Source of the DNA: an uncultured Dorea sp.
GTDB lineage: Bacteria > Bacillota_A > Clostridia > Lachnospirales > Lachnospiraceae
NCBI GenBank assembly: GCA_948468495.1
Contig: CAOKJI010000037.1
Location: forward strand, 1-9,747
Direction: 5' to 3'
Length of the DNA stretch: 9,747 bases
Shown here: positions 2,664-9,747 of the stretch, in pieces
Position numbering within the stretch: position 1 is the first letter of the stretch
Layout: each line of letters begins with the position of its first letter
The notes under the pieces: generated by a model
Seen by the model: the letters and a program-made list of their open reading frames with translations, nothing else
Database searches by the model: none
What the model was told of the DNA's origin: nothing
Position numbers and translations under genes: made by a program

Positions 2664-3224
2664 CTACCGCTTAAACCCCCGCTTCCTCTTATTCTTCATC
2701 ACAATCCTGCGGATATAAGCAAATGTCTCTTCCTCTCCCCTCTCCGCAAGCATCTTCAGCAAATGATGCAGAAGCGCCGCCGTATCTTTATGTACCATAT
2801 TGCCAAGTCTTGCCGCTCCCTGCTCATAATATTCCAACGGATGACAATCCCGGTAATTCTCTTTCTGATAAGTCTTAGAAGCAGCCACCCGGTCCATAAA
2901 CATCTCAATCACATACCTTGTCGGCATCTTCGTACCGGCGAGAAGCCGCTCTTTCTCCGCAGTGTAATCAATCCAGTATTCATAGTGGTGCTTATTGCGC
3001 CCCTTGTGATGAAGCCATGCCGTAGACACTCCTGTGGCCTCCCTCTCCGCGTTATTCGGACTCCTGTTCCCCTGATAATATTTGCATCCAACCAGAAACT
3101 CCGAAGGAGAATACTTGGACAGGTCATGGAGAAGTCCCTGCTTATACAGGCCCACTTTAAAGCATCCTTTCATGACCAGTAATTTGTGATGATTAATCGT
3201 CCTCAGATGTTCCAACGCCTTCAT
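2664..3224 (-). CDS. DUF5662 family protein
   Basis: This 186-residue protein matches my memory of DUF5662 (PF18907), a family of Firmicutes and their phages with no assigned reaction. It has conserved histidine and aspartate blocks: NHHK (11-14), LLHDLSKYSPSEF (31-43; His33, Asp34), WLHHKGRNKHHYEYW (70-84) and a C-terminal LLHHLLK (151-157). The HD pair followed by HH-x5-HH resembles the metal-binding arrangement of HD-domain hydrolases, but a link to that superfamily is my inference. The frame could start at 3284. The ATG at 3224 is preferred because GAGG lies 7 nt before it and the family-like sequence begins there (MKALEHLRTINHHK). The C-terminus is very basic (KNKRKRGFKR). The gene lies 109 nt after traX and 21 nt before the AAA-ATPase-like gene. 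No signal peptide or membrane segment is visible. Confidence 0.85.
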   Translation of the reverse strand: MKALEHLRTINHHKLLVMKGCFKVGLYKQGLLHDLSKYSPSEFLVGCKYYQGNRSPNNAEREATGVSTAWLHHKGRNKHHYEYWIDYTAEKERLLAGTKMPTRYVIEMFMDRVAASKTYQKENYRDCHPLEYYEQGAARLGNMVHKDTAALLHHLLKMLAERGEEETFAYIRRIVMKNKRKRGFKR

Positions 3225-3333
3225 ACTACTACCTCTTTTCTTATCAATAGAATCCTTGTAACAATTGAGACAGGTCCGCCTCAAACAAATTTTTCACGTA
3301 ACCAGTACATCTTATCTGAACTGCCGCGAATCA
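3225..3333. other. 109-nt gap between traX-like gene and DUF5662 gene
   Basis: This is the widest gap in the leftward gene series. It holds an imperfect dyad, TTGAG (3265-3269) and CTCAA (3280-3284), without a T-run adequate for a terminator. I find no convincing -35/-10 pair for a separate DUF5662 promoter, so read-through from the lipoprotein operon is possible but not shown. Confidence 0.5.
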
Positions 3334-4002
3334 TCACATATGTATATTCGCCAGAAAATACAATAATAACAAATGCAGCGGATAAAAAACATAGAAAAAA
3401 TACTTCATACTCCGCCCTTTCTGCCCGTTATACAGAGCAATAGGCAGCATCGCCAGGGCACCTGCCGTCTGGATTCTGCTGGGCCACAGGAAATTCCATG
3501 CGGCTCCCGCAAGATACTGCGCCGCCTTCTTCTCCCTTGTCATCCAGAAAATGGCAATCAGAAGAATCCCTCTGAATCCATAATCCGAATGCATGAGCTC
3601 AGCCGCCCACATAGCAAGAATCACAATCCCGGCTCTGGTAATGATTTCCCGCTCTCTGTCAAGTAACCACAGCATTCCAAGTCCGATAAATAAGGTTACA
3701 AATACATTCTGCTTCTCCGGATACCACAAAGACTGATGAAAGGCCAGATCAAAAGGAATCTCTGAAACAATTACAAAGATGCCAAGCCTCATCATATACT
3801 GAGCCACATTCCGCGTATGGTAGTATCCTTCCACCAGCAAAAAGCAAAAAATCGGGAACGCCAGTCTCCCCACATAGCGAAGCCACACTGCCTCGGGATA
3901 AATGATTACGCCCATATGATCAATCAACATTGATATAATTGCCAGAACTTTCAACTGAAATGTCGTAAGTCCCACTTTTCTTTCTATTACATGTTCCATC
4001 AT
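3334..4002 (-). CDS. TraX family integral membrane protein
   Basis: This 222-residue protein is very hydrophobic and has the landmarks of the TraX family (PF05857): FQLKVLAIISMLIDHMGVII (15-34; Asp28-His29), GRLAFPIFCFLLVEGYYHTRN (45-65), EIPFDL (81-86), QNVFVTLFIGL (98-108) and a terminal FYVFYPLHLLLLYFLA (203-218). I count eight to nine probable membrane segments, so it acts in the cytoplasmic membrane. The namesake F-plasmid TraX N-acetylates pilin; chromosomal homologues in Clostridia are usually of unknown substrate and may be membrane acyltransferases. No conjugation or pilin genes are in view. It begins 12 nt after the stop of the GH13-like gene. Its own ribosome binding site is weak (GATGGGATAGT before ATG), so translational coupling is likely. 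An ATG one codon later (3999) is an alternative start. Confidence 0.88.
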   Translation of the reverse strand: MMEHVIERKVGLTTFQLKVLAIISMLIDHMGVIIYPEAVWLRYVGRLAFPIFCFLLVEGYYHTRNVAQYMMRLGIFVIVSEIPFDLAFHQSLWYPEKQNVFVTLFIGLGMLWLLDREREIITRAGIVILAMWAAELMHSDYGFRGILLIAIFWMTREKKAAQYLAGAAWNFLWPSRIQTAGALAMLPIALYNGQKGRSMKYFFYVFYPLHLLLLYFLANIHM

Positions 4003-4014
4003 ACTATCCCATCA

Positions 4015-5814
4015 TTACCTGCCTGCCAGAATCAGGATTGTGCGCTCTGCCACAACCGTCTCATGCTGATTCTCAAGAAGCTCCGGCTCCTCAAGAACCC
4101 CTTCCCTCGTGGAAACAATAATATACCACTTTCTCTTGCCGGAAAGCGCCGGCAAAGCAAAACTGTGCTCCAGCCAGTGCATATTATAAATGATAAAGTA
4201 ATCCCCATCCCCTACGGCCGCGCCGCTGTAATATACTCCTAGCTGCCGACTGCTAAATTCGTCCGGCGTCCGCCATGCATATTCCCCATGATAAGAGACG
4301 TCTGGAACCCCGCACCGTACAGAATCTAATCCCCGCAAAGGCTCCTCCTGCATAAATACCGGGTGGGACTTGCGCAGCGCAATCAATTCCTTTATCAGTT
4401 CAAAAGTCTCTGGCTGTTTCTTTAATTTGCTCCAGTCCAGCCAGGAAGTAGTATTATCCTGACAATAGACATTATTATTTCCCTTCTGGGTATTCCCGAA
4501 TTCATCTCCCGCCAGAAGACAAGGCGTTCCCTGCGCAAATAACAACAACAGAAAGGCATTGCATATCTGGTTCCTTCTCAATTCATTGACAGCCTTTTTT
4601 CGGCTCGGTCCCTCAGCTCCGCAGTTCCAGCTATAATTACAGTCCGGACCGTCCTGATTATTTTCTCCATTCGCCTCATTGTGCTTACTATCATAAGAAA
4701 CCAAATCATTCAGGGTAAATCCATTCTGGCTGGTGATATAATTATAGGTATCCTTCGTATGATGATTCAGCCAGTAAATTACTCCTCCCACCATGCCTTC
4801 ATCCCCTTTTAGGAATCTGCGCATCGTGTTCTGGAAATCCTCCCTGTGTACAAGAATCTTCGTCTTTTTCAGTATCGGATCCGCATAGATTATGTCCATC
4901 GGAGCAACCCCGGGATTTAAAATAAATCCGTCTATATGATATTCCATCCTATAATACCGAAGACATTCTTCCATCATCTGCTTTGATGCTCCGCTGTCGA
5001 AAGGCATCTCCAGGATCACTTCAATCCCCGCCTTATGGCAGGATTTTACCATATCTTTCAATTCATTTACCGCATCTTTTGACGCAGCATAGCTCTTCTT
5101 AGGGGCAAAATAATAGCCCGGACCGTATCCCCAATAATTAATCACTGTTCTCGTATACTCATCAAATTCATAAACCGGCATACAATGAATCTGATTAATG
5201 CCAAGTTCCGACAGGTATGGAAGCTTCTCTACAATTCCCTGAAATGTCCCCTTATGTTTCACTTTCGATGTGGAATGCTTTGTAAATCCCTTTACATGCA
5301 GACTATAGGCAACTACCTGGTTCATAGGAATATTTAACGGTTCATCCCCTTCCCAGTCATACTTGTCCCACACAAGCTCTCCCCGCCGCTTTGTTATCTC
5401 TCTGCCGGTACTTATCTCTCCCAGAGAAACTTTCTTCTGCACTCCGTACGAAGCTCTCGTCTCTTCGACAGACTCCGGCTTCTCTGCTCCATGAGCCCCC
5501 TCTGCCAAATCTTTCTGTTCTCCGCGACATCTGACCTTCGCAAGTCTCTTCGCATAAGGGTCCACATAATCCTCGCCGTCAACCCGGTAAATATACTCCC
5601 AGGGCTTATCGCCCATGTCTTCCACTCCCACACAGCGCACTTCTCCCATTGCCGTCTCCTCTGTAAGTTCACATGCAAAAACAGGGTCCTCACCCTTCCT
5701 ATGGTATAACAGGAGCTCACATGCCTTCCCCTGCGGGATTGCAACCGCGAAATTCATCCCTTTATCTGTTCCTGTTACTCCAAGAGGTAATGGTGTTCCC
5801 TGTGTCTGCTTCAT
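4015..5814 (-). CDS. Catalytically inactive GH13 isoamylase/GlgX-like protein (CBM48 plus degenerate alpha-amylase barrel)
   Basis: This 599-residue cytoplasmic protein has the plan of glycogen-debranching enzymes of the isoamylase/GlgX/TreX type (GH13_11): an N-terminal CBM48-like beta domain (about 6-95, with YVDPYAKRL at 83-91), a TIM-barrel (about 165-480), and a C-terminal beta domain. Family hallmarks remain: INYWGYGPGYYFAP (225-238), GFTLNDLVSYDSKHNEANGE (365-384), CNYSWNCGAEGPSRKK (392-407), GTPCLLAGDEFGNTQ (429-443). Every conserved catalytic position is changed. Region I reads EMPFDS where DxxxNH is expected. Region II reads GFILNP for GFRFDL, so the nucleophile Asp is Asn300 and its Arg partner is Ile298. 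In region III the acid/base Glu aligns with His323. Region IV reads TSQNG for TSHDG (Gln363, Asn364). Hydrolysis by the GH13 mechanism therefore looks impossible, while the fold and glucan-contact regions persist: a probable pseudoenzyme with a binding, scaffold or regulatory role (inference). GGAGG lies 5 nt before the ATG. It follows the lipoprotein gene by 10 nt. Confidence 0.88.
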   Translation of the reverse strand: MKQTQGTPLPLGVTGTDKGMNFAVAIPQGKACELLLYHRKGEDPVFACELTEETAMGEVRCVGVEDMGDKPWEYIYRVDGEDYVDPYAKRLAKVRCRGEQKDLAEGAHGAEKPESVEETRASYGVQKKVSLGEISTGREITKRRGELVWDKYDWEGDEPLNIPMNQVVAYSLHVKGFTKHSTSKVKHKGTFQGIVEKLPYLSELGINQIHCMPVYEFDEYTRTVINYWGYGPGYYFAPKKSYAASKDAVNELKDMVKSCHKAGIEVILEMPFDSGASKQMMEECLRYYRMEYHIDGFILNPGVAPMDIIYADPILKKTKILVHREDFQNTMRRFLKGDEGMVGGVIYWLNHHTKDTYNYITSQNGFTLNDLVSYDSKHNEANGENNQDGPDCNYSWNCGAEGPSRKKAVNELRRNQICNAFLLLLFAQGTPCLLAGDEFGNTQKGNNNVYCQDNTTSWLDWSKLKKQPETFELIKELIALRKSHPVFMQEEPLRGLDSVRCGVPDVSYHGEYAWRTPDEFSSRQLGVYYSGAAVGDGDYFIIYNMHWLEHSFALPALSGKRKWYIIVSTREGVLEEPELLENQHETVVAERTILILAGR

Positions 5815-5824
5815 ATGTTCCTCC

Positions 5825-6832
5825 TTACTGCCATCCGTCAGCTCCGTACATCTTCACATTATCACTGTTAATCATGAACACATCTTCATAAATCTCTTCT
5901 TCGTATTCATCTCCGTCCAAAATCAAAATCCCGGTTTTGGCCGCTTCTTTTCCTATGCCAATCGGCGACTGAGCCGCCGTTCCGGCAATCTGCGTGTCTG
6001 GCTTCATAAGCTCCTTTTTAATATCCGGCGAGCCGTCCACGCCATAAATCATCACATCTTTTAGTCCCGCAAGATTCACTGCCGTAGTAGCTCCCACCGC
6101 AATCTGATCGTTGCCGCACATAATTACGTCAATATCCTTATGCTCCTTTAACATCTCCTGGGTAATCTCCAGCGCTTTCTGAAATTCCCCGTTGGTATCC
6201 GCCCTGTCTACAATCTCGAATCCCACTTCCGCAGAAGATATCGCTTTTTCAAATCCCGTGATTCTCTCATTAATGGAATTCTGGGTCGGACATTCCAGAA
6301 TCAATATCCTTCCGCCATCCGGACATCTCTCCAGCAAATCCTCTCCGCAGATATATCCGGCGTTCTCATTATCCGAACCGATGTACGCGTCCACGTATTC
6401 CATTTCTTTGACCTGAGTATCCACATTAATAATCTTCACATCCGCTTCCCGCAGAGCCTCCAGGCTTTCGGTAATCTCCACCCAGTTCACCGGACAGATA
6501 AAAATCGCATCGATCCCCTCGTCTATCATCTCCATAATCTGCTCATTCTGAATGCTGGGATCACTCTCCGGATTCTTCGTAATCAAAGTATATCCTTCCT
6601 TGTCAAGAACCTCCTTAATCGCACTCTCCAGCGTAATAAAATAAGGGTTCTCCATATCAATCGCGCTGAATCCAAACTTATAACCCGTCTCTTCTTCCTC
6701 TTCCTCCGTCTCGGATTCCTCCTCTGAGGAAGCTGCATTATCCTCCGGCGTTCCCACTGCTTTCTTACAGCCATACAAGGCCAGAATACCTATAAGCAAA
6801 GCAGCAATCACAATCAATGCTTTCTTTTTCAT
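5825..6832 (-). CDS. Sugar-type substrate-binding lipoprotein (periplasmic-binding-protein fold type I)
   Basis: The 335-residue product starts with a lipoprotein signal peptide: MKKK, a hydrophobic core (5-20) and LYGC with Cys22 as the lipidation site (Tyr at -2 is atypical). An acidic linker (35-49, mostly Glu and Ser) then tethers the binding domain to the membrane. The rest resembles RbsB-like proteins (Peripla_BP_4): FGFSAIDMENPYF (53-65), IDAIFICPVNW (107-117), IINVDTQV (134-141), YIGSDNENAGYICGE (150-164), CGNDQIAVGA (239-248), IYGVDGSPD (262-270). Such proteins bind monosaccharides or similar small ligands outside the cell for ABC transporters or sensors. No ATPase or permease gene is in the window, so it is an orphan here. 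The frame extends to 6859, but GGAGG sits 8 nt before the ATG at 6832 and the likely transcription start (near 6855) lies inside that extension. It heads the operon with the GH13-like gene. The ligand is unknown. Confidence 0.9.
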   Translation of the reverse strand: MKKKALIVIAALLIGILALYGCKKAVGTPEDNAASSEEESETEEEEEETGYKFGFSAIDMENPYFITLESAIKEVLDKEGYTLITKNPESDPSIQNEQIMEMIDEGIDAIFICPVNWVEITESLEALREADVKIINVDTQVKEMEYVDAYIGSDNENAGYICGEDLLERCPDGGRILILECPTQNSINERITGFEKAISSAEVGFEIVDRADTNGEFQKALEITQEMLKEHKDIDVIMCGNDQIAVGATTAVNLAGLKDVMIYGVDGSPDIKKELMKPDTQIAGTAAQSPIGIGKEAAKTGILILDGDEYEEEIYEDVFMINSDNVKMYGADGWQ

Positions 6833-6861
6833 AGTTCCTTCCTCCCTGTGCATACACATTT

Positions 6862-7085: not shown

Positions 7086-7358
7086 ATGGAGAATTTAGGC
7101 ACTGTAACCCTGACTTTGGATAACGACAAAGAACTGGAATGTGAAATCCTCACCATCTATACAGCCGCAGGCAGAGACTATATCGCCCTTGCGCCCATGG
7201 ATGAAACTTTGGACGATATCGTCTATCTTTACCGCTATATTGACCGGGGCGAAGAGGAACCAGAACTTGAACTAATTGAAGAAGATGAAGAATATGAGAT
7301 TGCCTCAGACGGCTTTGACGAATGGCTGGATACTATGGAATTTGAGGAATTGGACTAG
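7086..7358 (+). CDS. DUF1292 family protein (YrzB-like)
   Basis: This small, strongly acidic 90-residue protein matches the DUF1292 family (PF06949), to which Bacillus subtilis YrzB belongs. Hallmarks are an N-terminal beta-rich part (TVTLTLDNDKELECEILTIY, 6-25), the core DYIALAPMD (31-39), VYLYRY (46-51), a run of acidic residues (55-70), and a C-terminus of the usual type (GFDEWLDTMEFEEL, 76-89). The biochemical function is unknown; in Firmicutes these genes are usually chromosomal and near housekeeping genes such as alaS, which is not seen here. AAAGGAG lies 7 nt before the ATG. A structured leader precedes it (6962-7043) and an intrinsic terminator lies 92 nt after the stop codon, inside the convergent helicase gene, so it is probably a single-gene transcript. 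Length is normal for the family and it appears intact. Confidence 0.9.
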   Translation: MENLGTVTLTLDNDKELECEILTIYTAAGRDYIALAPMDETLDDIVYLYRYIDRGEEEPELELIEEDEEYEIASDGFDEWLDTMEFEELD

Positions 7359-7413: not shown

Positions 7414-9264
7414 CTAACGCTGCTTCCGGCCGGCAAGCAAATCACTGACAAAACGGGAAGGAGACGCCTCTTTGCCGTTTTTTGTCTTCACATAACTGAT
7501 TATCAGCTCTCTTTTCGCCCGGGTCATCGCCACATAGAACATTCTCCGCTCTTCCTCAATCTCAGCATCCAGCTTTGCCTTCTTATAGGGAATCACGCCC
7601 TCATTGCTCTGGATAATAAAAACAGTATCAAATTCCAGTCCTTTCGCCCCATGCATCGTCATCAGGCAGACGCCTTCCCTGTCTTTTGCCCTTCTGTCTT
7701 TCTGCTCCTTCAGCGTTCTCCCATATTCCTCTATATAGGCAAGCCATTCCGAAACAGAGGCAAATGCCTTTGCCCGCTCCTCTACTTCTGCCAGCAGTGA
7801 AAATAACTCGCTGGCGCTAATCTTCTTCGCCGCCGCATATTCCTTCAGATAATCATCATAGCCAATATGCCGGCGAATATACTGGACAGAGGCATAAGGC
7901 GTCTGCCCAGTTAACATCTTAATATCCCACTCAAACTGGTCAATCCTGTCTAACATCCAGTCTTTATCCATATAAAACCGTCTCAGAGCCTCAAAAGACA
8001 CCTGCGCCTCTTCTAAGCTCTCCCGGCTGATATATCGCTTCGGTGCGTTCATTACATCCAGAAATACCCTTCTGCTCCGGTCGCCTTCCGCCATCCTTAC
8101 ATAGCTAAGAAGCTTTCTCACAACAAAATGCTCATAGATATTGCGCACCTGTTCCCTGGCCTGAAAGGGTATCTGGTTCTCCACGAGCAGTTCCATCAGA
8201 ATCCCCGCATCATTCCCAGTCCGGTACAATACCGCCATCTGGCGGTAATCCAGTCCCTTTTCATGCAAATCCTTCATCTTCTGAATCAGATACCAGCTCT
8301 CCTCTGTGGAATCCTTAACCTCCTGCACGTGGACGCAGGCTCCCTTCTCATTCTCTGTTGAGAGTTTCTTCTCGTACCTCTGGCTGTTACAGCCAATCAC
8401 TTTCAGCGCGCCGTTCACAATATTCTTACTGGAGCGGTAATTCACTCCCAGGAGAAGCTTTCTGGTATCCGGGTAATCATTCCCGAATCCCAGCATAATC
8501 TCCGGACTGGCGCCCCGGAACCGGTAAATAGACTGATCGTCATCTCCCACAACAAACAGATTATTCTCCGGCAGAGCAAGCAGACGTATCACCTCATACT
8601 GAACTCGGTTCACATCCTGAAATTCGTCAATCAGAATAAAGCGGAACCGCTCCTGCCACTGATTTAGTATATCCTCCCTGCGCCGGAATAAATCATAACA
8701 AAGCAGCAGCATATCGTCAAAGTCAATCTTGCGCAGCGCTTTGCGCCGCTTCTCATAGGCTTGATAAATCCTTCCAAACATCGCCCCATGACGGGCGGAT
8801 TCATATCTGCTAACCGGGATTCCCCTGTTCTTTACCGTACTAATCTCTGTAATCAAATCCTGCAGTTCTTCTCTCTCATCCATGGTCTCCAGCTCATATC
8901 CCAGCTCCGGAGAAGATACAATCTCACGCAGCATCTGAAACTTCTCTTCTTCCGTCAGAATATTCTCCGAGCCTAAGCGGTAAGCCCATTTTAAAATCCC
9001 GAAATATACGCCATGGAAGGTTCCGAATGTCACCGGAAGGCTCCTGCCCTCCATCAGCGCCTGAAACCGCTTCTGCATTTCATAGGAAGCCGCCCGGGTA
9101 AAAGTAATGACCAGAATCTGCTCTGGTCTTACTTTATAATGCTCTATTAAATAACAAACCCTCTTAGCGATGGTAAAGGTCTTCCCGGAACCCGGCCCTG
9201 CAAGCACCATACAGGGACCCTTAAAATGCTGGATCGCCTCTTTCTGCACCTGGTTCGGCCGCAT
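7414..9264 (-). CDS. UvrD/Rep/PcrA-like superfamily 1 DNA helicase (compact form)
   Basis: This 616-residue protein is an ATP-dependent 3'-5' DNA helicase of superfamily 1A. All helicase motifs are present in order: Q-motif region PNQVQKEAI (3-11), Walker A AGPGSGKT (22-29), Ia ITFTRAA (53-59), FGTFHG (80-85), II LIDEFQD (211-217), III VVGDDDQSIYRFRGA (238-252), IV NYRSSKNIV (275-283), V MTMHGAKGLEFDTVF (535-549), VI EEERRMFYVAMTRAKREL (570-587). It is about 100-130 residues shorter than typical PcrA or UvrD and stops soon after motif VI, without the long C-terminal tail that binds RNA polymerase in PcrA. It may therefore be a clostridial paralogue rather than PcrA itself. The frame extends to 9336 but overlaps gltX. 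The ATG at 9264 is chosen because GAGGT lies 7 nt upstream, across the gltX stop. It follows gltX by 4 nt and is probably translationally coupled. I found no clear terminator downstream. Confidence 0.93.
   Translation of the reverse strand: MRPNQVQKEAIQHFKGPCMVLAGPGSGKTFTIAKRVCYLIEHYKVRPEQILVITFTRAASYEMQKRFQALMEGRSLPVTFGTFHGVYFGILKWAYRLGSENILTEEEKFQMLREIVSSPELGYELETMDEREELQDLITEISTVKNRGIPVSRYESARHGAMFGRIYQAYEKRRKALRKIDFDDMLLLCYDLFRRREDILNQWQERFRFILIDEFQDVNRVQYEVIRLLALPENNLFVVGDDDQSIYRFRGASPEIMLGFGNDYPDTRKLLLGVNYRSSKNIVNGALKVIGCNSQRYEKKLSTENEKGACVHVQEVKDSTEESWYLIQKMKDLHEKGLDYRQMAVLYRTGNDAGILMELLVENQIPFQAREQVRNIYEHFVVRKLLSYVRMAEGDRSRRVFLDVMNAPKRYISRESLEEAQVSFEALRRFYMDKDWMLDRIDQFEWDIKMLTGQTPYASVQYIRRHIGYDDYLKEYAAAKKISASELFSLLAEVEERAKAFASVSEWLAYIEEYGRTLKEQKDRRAKDREGVCLMTMHGAKGLEFDTVFIIQSNEGVIPYKKAKLDAEIEEERRMFYVAMTRAKRELIISYVKTKNGKEASPSRFVSDLLAGRKQR
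7450..7483 (+). terminator. Intrinsic terminator for the DUF1292 transcript, inside the convergent helicase gene
   Basis: AAAACGGGAAGGAG (7450-7463) pairs with CTCTTTGCCGTTTT (7468-7481) over 14 positions, with one G-G mismatch and one G-U pair, and a 4-nt loop ACGC. Six T residues (7478-7483) form the end of the stem and tail. The wobble pair is valid only on the plus strand and the minus-strand T-run is only four long, so I assign it to the plus strand. The same bases encode roughly residues 595-605 of the helicase. Confidence 0.55.
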
Positions 9265-9268
9265 GGAA

Positions 9269-9747
9269 CTACCTCGCTTCCAACTTTTCGATTCCGGCGC
9301 GAATCCGGGCAAGAGATTCCTCTTTCCCCAGCACATCCATAATCTCCGTTGCGCCTCCCGGTGTATTCTGCCTGCCGGAGACAGCCGTACGAATCGGCCA
9401 CATCACATATCCAATCTTCTTCCCTGTCTCTCCCGCATACTGCTTCAGCGTCTCAAACAGCGCGTCGTTGCCAAAATCCTCCTGCTGCTCCAGCACAGGA
9501 AGCACACCCTTAAGAAGCTCCAGAGAATTCTCCTCGTTCGTCTTCATCTTCTTATGACAATACATCGCCGTATCATATTCCGGCACCGCCTCAAAGAAAT
9601 CAATCTGCTCCCTGATATCTAAGAATGTCTCAATACGAGTCTTAATCAGCCCTGCAATCTTATGCAAATCATACTTATCCCCGACCACTTCTTCTATATA
9701 CGGCTTCGCAAGCGCGAAGAACTTCTCATCCTCCATCGCCTTTAAAT
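9269..9747 (-). CDS. gltX: Glutamyl-tRNA synthetase, C-terminal part, runs off right edge
   Basis: The frame is open at the right edge (it reads LKAMEDEKFF from 9745 inward), so only the last 159 residues are present. This is the anticodon-binding helical domain of glutamyl-tRNA synthetase, which charges tRNA-Glu with glutamate in the cytoplasm. The recognisable end is IGYVMWPIRTAVSGR followed by NTPGGATEIMDVLGKEESLA and RIRAGIEKL, the standard C-terminal pattern of Firmicutes GltX. The ATP-binding HIGH and KMSKS motifs lie in the missing N-terminal part. The ATG at 9736 is an internal methionine, not the start. The stop codon TAG (9271-9269) forms part of the helicase ribosome binding site region, and the next gene starts 4 nt later. 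Confidence 0.9.
   Translation of the reverse strand, partial: LKAMEDEKFFALAKPYIEEVVGDKYDLHKIAGLIKTRIETFLDIREQIDFFEAVPEYDTAMYCHKKMKTNEENSLELLKGVLPVLEQQEDFGNDALFETLKQYAGETGKKIGYVMWPIRTAVSGRQNTPGGATEIMDVLGKEESLARIRAGIEKLEAR

Follow-up and report, generated by a model that had tools for sequence, protein, structure and literature searches.

The window analysed here is the whole 9,747-nucleotide stretch of DNA from an uncultured Dorea sp. (assembly GCA_948468495.1, contig CAOKJI010000037.1). Its gene of interest encodes an apparently non-catalytic protein of glycoside hydrolase subfamily GH13_11, similar to GlgX and isoamylase, and is one of a run of genes on the same strand (Table 1). An AGGAGG motif lies inside the 11 bases preceding its ATG, and the start codon falls 10 bases past the stop of an upstream gene for a sugar-binding lipoprotein, with which it is likely co-transcribed. 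The solved proteins nearest to the lipoprotein are ribose-binding proteins, and the window contains no transporter genes to accompany it. No signal peptide was noticed by eye in the GH13_11 protein itself. Downstream lie genes for a TraX-family membrane protein and a DUF5662 protein; a sequence search for a solved relative of the latter gave no significant match (best E 0.27). The next gene in the run, encoding an AAA-ATPase_like and PDDEXK_9 protein, fell into gene clusters with at most two loci when neighbourhoods were compared, and it is possibly a recent insertion beside the operon. A frame at positions 3–731 (243 aa), open at the window end, had no Pfam or NCBIfam matches at E ≤ 0.001.

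Table 1 Genes in the window, and catalytic regions and sugar-contact positions within the pseudoenzyme. Contacts are named after Streptomyces venezuelae GlgX, as listed in the available part of PMC9530166.
Feature	Position	Strand	Details
Non-catalytic GH13_11 (GlgX/isoamylase-like) protein gene	4015–5814	−	599 aa, ATG start
RbsB/Peripla_BP_4-type sugar-binding lipoprotein gene	5825–6859	−	upstream of pseudoenzyme, 10 bp gap
TraX-family membrane acyltransferase-like protein gene	3334–4002	−	downstream of pseudoenzyme; PF05857, 178.5 bits
DUF5662 protein gene	2664–3284	−	downstream; PF18907, 127.2 bits
AAA-ATPase_like/PD-(D/E)XK (PDDEXK_9) protein gene	1059–2651	−	
UvrD/PcrA-type helicase gene	7414–9336	−	
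Glutamyl-tRNA synthetase-like C-terminal piece	9269–9745	−	truncated at window end
DUF1292 gene	7086–7358	opposite to pseudoenzyme run	
Trp228 and Tyr230	5125–5133	−	contacts Trp222 and Tyr224, kept; by alignment
Region I remnant EVILEMPFDSG, residues 265–275	4990–5022	−	Asp to Glu269, His to Ser274; following ~45 domain B residues absent
Region II HIDGFILNPG, residues 293–302	4909–4938	−	Arg to Ile298, nucleophile Asp to Asn300
Region III remnant TKILVH, residues 318–323	4846–4863	−	acid/base Glu, α5 and strand β6 deleted
Region IV NYITSQNGFTL, residues 358–368	4711–4743	−	His to Gln363, stabilising Asp to Asn364
GH13_11 signature block SYDxKHNEANGE, NYSWNCGAEG, LAGDEF, GNNNVYCQDN, residues 365–461	4432–4722	−	retained; 31 of 54 kept near-invariant columns
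Glu384	4663–4665	−	contact Glu470; Glu in 118 of 120 orthologues; by alignment
Asn448-Val-Tyr450	4465–4473	−	contacts Asn534 and Tyr536, kept; by alignment

A sequence-only reading of this locus had described a protein that keeps the landmarks of GlgX/TreX-type debranching enzymes while every GH13 catalytic residue is replaced. The landmarks WGYGPGYYFAP, SYDSKHNEANGE, NYSWNCG and LLAGDEFG are indeed all present. We assigned the catalytic positions by aligning the protein to 20 intact homologues and comparing it with S. venezuelae GlgX, whose numbering was transferred by hand through the homologue at locus L087; the available part of the report on that enzyme gives its catalytic residues as Asp342, Glu378 and Asp450 (PMC9530166). 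In these alignments the proposed substitutions of the nucleophile, the stabilising Asp, the region IV His, the region II Arg, and the region I Asp and His all stand. The acid/base Glu is lost as well, as proposed; its suggested pairing with His323, however, appears in one alignment only, and “deleted” is a safer description than “replaced by His323” because larger alignments put a gap there.

Regions I and II are separated by 31 residues in the window protein and by 30–31 in all 120 orthologues of the family-wide survey described below, as against 75–77 in 44 intact homologues selected for having the catalytic residues; the roughly 45 residues missing between them are those of domain B. The carbohydrate-binding module CBM48 (PF02922) had no match at E ≤ 5 in the N-terminal domain of any of four pseudoenzymes, and was matched in both of two intact paralogues (33.8–35.6 bits). 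With 332 bits the window protein also misses the TIGR02100 equivalog cut-off of 640.9 bits, which some paralogues with all three catalytic residues miss slightly too. These alignments show that the window protein lacks the GH13_11 catalytic triad; that it is a pseudoenzyme is well supported, and we predict that it is inactive.

An AlphaFold2 model of the window protein is confident and shows a GlgX/ISA1 fold, in which the overall three-domain GH13_11 arrangement is predicted to be present. Strand β6 is missing from the strand list of this model and present in the model of L151, a member of the broader family, both structures being predictions. Because the window’s clade has lost the α5–β6 unit, the barrel predicted by AlphaFold2 has seven strands; by this prediction and by the spacing of regions I and II, the window protein departs from a complete (β/α)8 barrel with domain B. 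If the model holds, the protein would be an example of a GH13 barrel that still folds with one strand fewer.

We surveyed related genomes for the pseudoenzyme and for intact GlgX. In the nearest genus the pseudoenzyme is found in 10 of 11 genomes, and seven of the 11 encode, as a separate protein of about 700 aa, a GlgX that keeps Asp/Glu/Asp; searches for a separate intact GlgX in the nearest-genus genomes G001, G007 and G010 found no match. From at least 595 loci in named genomes, the best 80 comprised 48 of the window’s form, 12 other degenerate forms and 20 intact GlgX. For the family as a whole, 150 genomes, one per genus, were drawn from Lachnospiraceae, to which the nearest genome, G001, belongs. 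A match was present in 126 of these, and 121 were counted as carriers (120 best matches that were fetched, plus G001), leaving out three genomes whose best match was taken for intact GlgX (G014, G053 and G133) and two with a fragment or short frame (G049 and G089). None of the 120 one-per-genus orthologues has all three catalytic residues; two are kept in three orthologues, one in 36 and none in 81. By position, the nucleophile Asp is kept in one, the acid/base Glu in 15 and the stabilising Asp in 26, and the most frequent states are Asn (39), a gap (20) and Asn (62), respectively. Counts are stated on these 120 because the 140 pseudoenzyme rows in our full alignment partly overlap, some genomes being entered under two labels. 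The orthologue with Asp at the nucleophile position lies at L146 (3973–5724), and two of the three catalytic acids are retained at each of L243 (4036–5847), L260 (4002–6098) and L267 (3643–5511).

Outside Lachnospiraceae but within its order, matches occurred in 16 genomes of other families, and all 13 of the homologues fetched are intact (those of G232, G253 and G270 were unread). An unrooted tree of 44 intact sequences and 44 of the 140 pseudoenzyme rows (88 rows, quick search, no bootstrap) set the two groups cleanly on the two sides of one branch with an SH-aLRT of 100; three long-branch pseudoenzyme rows are poorly placed within their group. The simplest history consistent with these sequences is a single loss early in Lachnospiraceae, followed by retention in most of the genera sampled. 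The losses first noted at one locus recur in the orthologues, and related genomes do hold a second glgX with intact catalytic residues; judged by these comparisons, the original observation is confirmed and is wider than first described, being family-wide and no local mutant. In Lachnospiraceae, a major gut family, about four in five of the sampled genera carry the pseudoenzyme. Database labels of its relatives read glycogen debranching protein or alpha-amylase family glycosyl hydrolase although the pseudoenzyme lacks the residues of the GH13 mechanism, and gene counts for debranching enzymes or amylases in these genomes may be too high. One protein labelled as Blautia obeum (P0064) is 62% identical to the window protein; the available part of one report counts two glgX homologues in B. 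obeum (PMC10395257).

Substitution rates point to purifying selection. The dN/dS (NG86) between the window gene and that of its nearest relative, G001, is 0.106, and values range from 0.056 to 0.135 over 10 computable pairs, synonymous sites being saturated in eight of 18 pairs. For neighbouring genes in the same comparison with G001, dN/dS is 0.125 (helicase), 0.128 (TraX), 0.047 (lipoprotein) and 0.057 (DUF5662). In G004, G005, G006 and G011, the pseudoenzyme has a dN of 0.05–0.12 (82–91% identity), compared with 0.009–0.033 (94–98%) for the intact paralogue. The earlier proposal of a retained pseudoenzyme, with no decay of the gene, is well supported by the open frame, the conserved gene order, this range of dN/dS and the absence of a full triad from all 120 orthologues. 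Nor does the window hold a recent mutant of an otherwise intact lineage: the residues are missing from the orthologues as well, and the intact GlgX of seven of the 11 nearest-genus genomes is a paralogue distinct from the pseudoenzyme.

Of 133 columns that are near-invariant in the 44 intact sequences (≥95%), 54 keep their residue at ≥90% among the 120 orthologues; 31 of these 54 lie in residues 365–461, and the lost columns cluster in regions I–III and domain B. The available part of the report on S. venezuelae GlgX lists 11 contacts to acarbose (PMC9530166). Five of these are kept in the 120 orthologues, namely Trp222 (120), Tyr224 (108, with Phe in 12), Glu470 (118), Asn534 (120) and Tyr536 (111, with Trp in nine), and six are not: His271, Asp342, Glu378, Trp380 (Trp in 38 of 120), His449 (His in 49 of 120) and Arg212. 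Four of the lost contacts, His271, Trp380, His449 and Arg212, are outside the catalytic triad, the Arg212 column varying in the intact set too. By position, the kept contacts fall in the loops after β2, β7 and β8, and the lost ones mostly in β3–β5 and at the end of β7. The Glu470 column holds Glu in nearly all pseudoenzymes and Trp in 24 of the 44 intact proteins, so the pseudoenzyme set does not merely copy the local paralogue.

Glucan binding is favoured mainly because this pattern of kept and lost contacts is one-sided; the pattern is suggestive only, since it was recognised post hoc, near-invariant columns often survive in any case (54 of 133), more contacts are lost than kept and the retained residues may have a structural role. 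An alternative set of 11 positions, without Glu470 and Arg212 and with Arg340 and Asp450, divided into four of four kept versus none of seven (Fisher p = 0.003); as it too was grouped post hoc, we set it aside. We infer from the kept residues that the protein may bind α-glucan, which is plausible, and the sequence-only reading’s suggestion that it binds glycogen as a sensor, scaffold or regulator finds some support in the same residues.

Gene neighbourhoods were compared at two scales. Among 60 loci, most of them of the window’s clade and at least one genome being entered twice (as L014 and L124), 48 have the lipoprotein gene directly upstream in the same orientation, and the gap between the two genes is 9–27 bases in 38 of those 48. 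In the family-wide set of 120 loci, window included, the lipoprotein gene is immediately upstream in just 18, and the next gene encodes a DUF5662 protein in 44 and a TraX protein in 34 (clustering of neighbours counted 120 of 121 loci, L200 having dropped out). We rejected the operon as proof of function, the lipoprotein being steady only in the window’s clade. TraX-like and DUF5662 genes come after the pseudoenzyme gene in distant Lachnospiraceae genera, and further recurring nearby genes are, as we take them to be from reading their sequences, ABC-F, exonuclease III-like and luxS-like. Beyond the lipoprotein, the neighbourhood looks like mostly conserved chromosome order. Identifiable neighbours at the 120 loci include no glycogen genes, except intact GlgX at two: one gene away from the pseudoenzyme in L256 (8061–10238) and two genes off in L166 (858–2996), a proximity that may reflect a tandem origin or coincidence.

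Genes of glycogen metabolism elsewhere in the genomes provide context for the host. Matches to glgC exceeded the cut-off in 145 of the 150 genomes, and glycogen synthase and phosphorylase were present in all seven genomes checked for them, five carriers and two non-carriers (G097 and G157). Hosts can therefore probably make glycogen, with or without the pseudoenzyme. Two carriers, G036 and G152 (drafts, 90 and 93% complete), have only weak glgC matches, yet possess glycogen synthase and phosphorylase. Co-occurrence with glgC, considered as a link to glycogen synthesis, proved uninformative because glgC is nearly universal in the family.

The explanation we prefer, with a probability of about one half, is that the protein is a non-catalytic, glycogen-associated scaffold or sensor that binds α-glucan and is itself an ancient paralogue of GlgX. 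One deep paralogue would have become fixed at an early stage of Lachnospiraceae history; in its barrel the catalytic half (β3–β6, with domain B, the nucleophile, the acid/base and, in the window’s clade, β6 itself) would then have been eroded or deleted, and the opposite side of the cleft, formed by the loops after β2, β7 and β8, would have been held under strong constraint. Such a half-cleft would most likely hold an α-1,4-glucan chain or a branch stub with no cutting, and the resulting glycogen-associated scaffold or sensor might affect other glycogen enzymes. Glucan binding may be read from the kept contacts with more assurance than a part in regulating glycogen handling, or any choice of partner, and the regulatory role as such is a guess guided by analogy with the plant isoamylase ISA2.

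One may postulate, alternatively, that the fold has been reused for a role unrelated to glucan, as a protein-interaction or membrane-associated scaffold, perhaps together with its neighbours (lipoprotein, TraX and DUF5662), in the manner of 4F2hc. This competitor, unlikely in our view, has several observations in its favour: the genes that recur beside the pseudoenzyme encode TraX, DUF5662 and, in the window’s clade, the lipoprotein, and are not glg genes; CBM48 is no longer recognised; six of the 11 acarbose contacts listed in the available S. venezuelae text are lost; and domain B is gone, along with β6 in the window’s clade. Five contact residues are nevertheless kept at 90–100% over 120 genera, for which a pure scaffold has no obvious need, and much of the TraX/DUF5662 context may itself be conserved chromosome order.

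A second alternative, decidedly improbable, would make the pseudoenzyme an obligate non-catalytic subunit of the cell’s own debranching enzyme, GlgX or PulA. It has a precedent of the same subfamily in plant ISA2, as described in the available parts of two reports (PMC12510319, PMC12892837), and potential partners do exist: among the 121 carriers, strong matches to GlgX occur in 39 and matches to type I pullulanase in 31. All 21 of the 39 second GlgX copies that were read residue by residue are intact; the other 18 were assessed only by their scores, and they include at least one partial copy (G044). At E ≤ 1e-100, however, 60 of the 121 carriers have neither enzyme, an absence counted mostly in draft genomes and in searches confined to GlgX and type I pullulanase, and a fixed GlgX partner is unlikely in general because so many carriers lack a strong match to either; we rejected an obligate subunit of GlgX as a general explanation on these grounds. 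Nor is GlgX significantly tied to the pseudoenzyme (39 of 121 carriers versus 4 of the 29 other genomes, which include the unclassified G049 and G089; p = 0.066).

It is more doubtful that the remodelled barrel is a new enzyme, in which other carboxylates catalyse a different α-glucan reaction. Asp295, Asp370, Glu384, Asp388, Glu401, Asp437 and Asp453 are invariant or nearly so across the pseudoenzyme and intact sequences, and Glu384 and Asp497 are better conserved in the pseudoenzyme set than in the intact set. Most such acidic residues are not new, however, since they are equally conserved in intact GlgX, and no single residue takes over the three catalytic positions throughout. Scarcely credible, finally, is a decaying gene, recent mutant or still weakly active debranching enzyme, for although dN is higher for the pseudoenzyme than for the intact paralogue where the same genomes are compared and three of 120 orthologues retain two catalytic acids, dN/dS is low, the loss is common to the orthologues, all 120 genera have the deletion and only one of the 120 retains the nucleophile Asp, so that the age of the gene and the selection on it already contradict decay and recent mutation.

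The preferred reading of a glycogen-associated scaffold or sensor can be carried further, if only tentatively, to a family-wide non-catalytic reader of α-glucan, which would hold chains or branch stubs in its half-cleft and tune glycogen build-up or breakdown even in hosts without GlgX or type I pullulanase. If true, such a reader would parallel ISA2 in bacteria and be independent of a debranching partner.

Among the literature matches listed, as far as titles and abstract openings go, there is no description of a bacterial non-catalytic GlgX. The closest solved proteins by sequence are ISA1, TreX and GlgX, with ISA2 scoring lower (our tree contained no ISA2): the window protein is closer to ISA1 (222–246 bits) than to ISA2 (107–117 bits). 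From GlgX, TreX and ISA1 it differs in lacking the nucleophile, the acid/base, the stabiliser, the region I Asp and His, the region II Arg and domain B. A GH13-type barrel without catalytic residues also occurs in 4F2hc/CD98hc, which serves as a partner protein; that protein is of animal origin and membrane-anchored, unlike the window protein. GlgD, the GlgC-like partner in ADP-glucose pyrophosphorylase, is similarly a paralogue within the same pathway that is thought not to catalyse, GlgC being the catalytic subunit of the pair according to the available part of one report (PMC10395257); its fold and its step are different, and we use it as an analogy only. Inactive GH13 isoforms in archaea are mentioned in a table legend within the available part of another report (PMC11046441).

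Plant ISA2 offers the nearest parallel: a GH13_11 fold of old origin whose catalytic residues are substituted over a large clade and which coexists with active paralogues. In the available part of one study, each ISA2 examined shows variation at no fewer than four of five conserved catalytic positions, and the continued selection of this non-catalytic protein “is not understood” (PMC12510319). The Lachnospiraceae pseudoenzyme may provide a bacterial system for the question raised there, namely why a non-catalytic debranching paralogue is kept. It differs from ISA2 in being bacterial, in the deletion of domain B and, in the window’s clade, of β6, and in that half of its carriers (60 of 121) have no strong match to GlgX or PulA.
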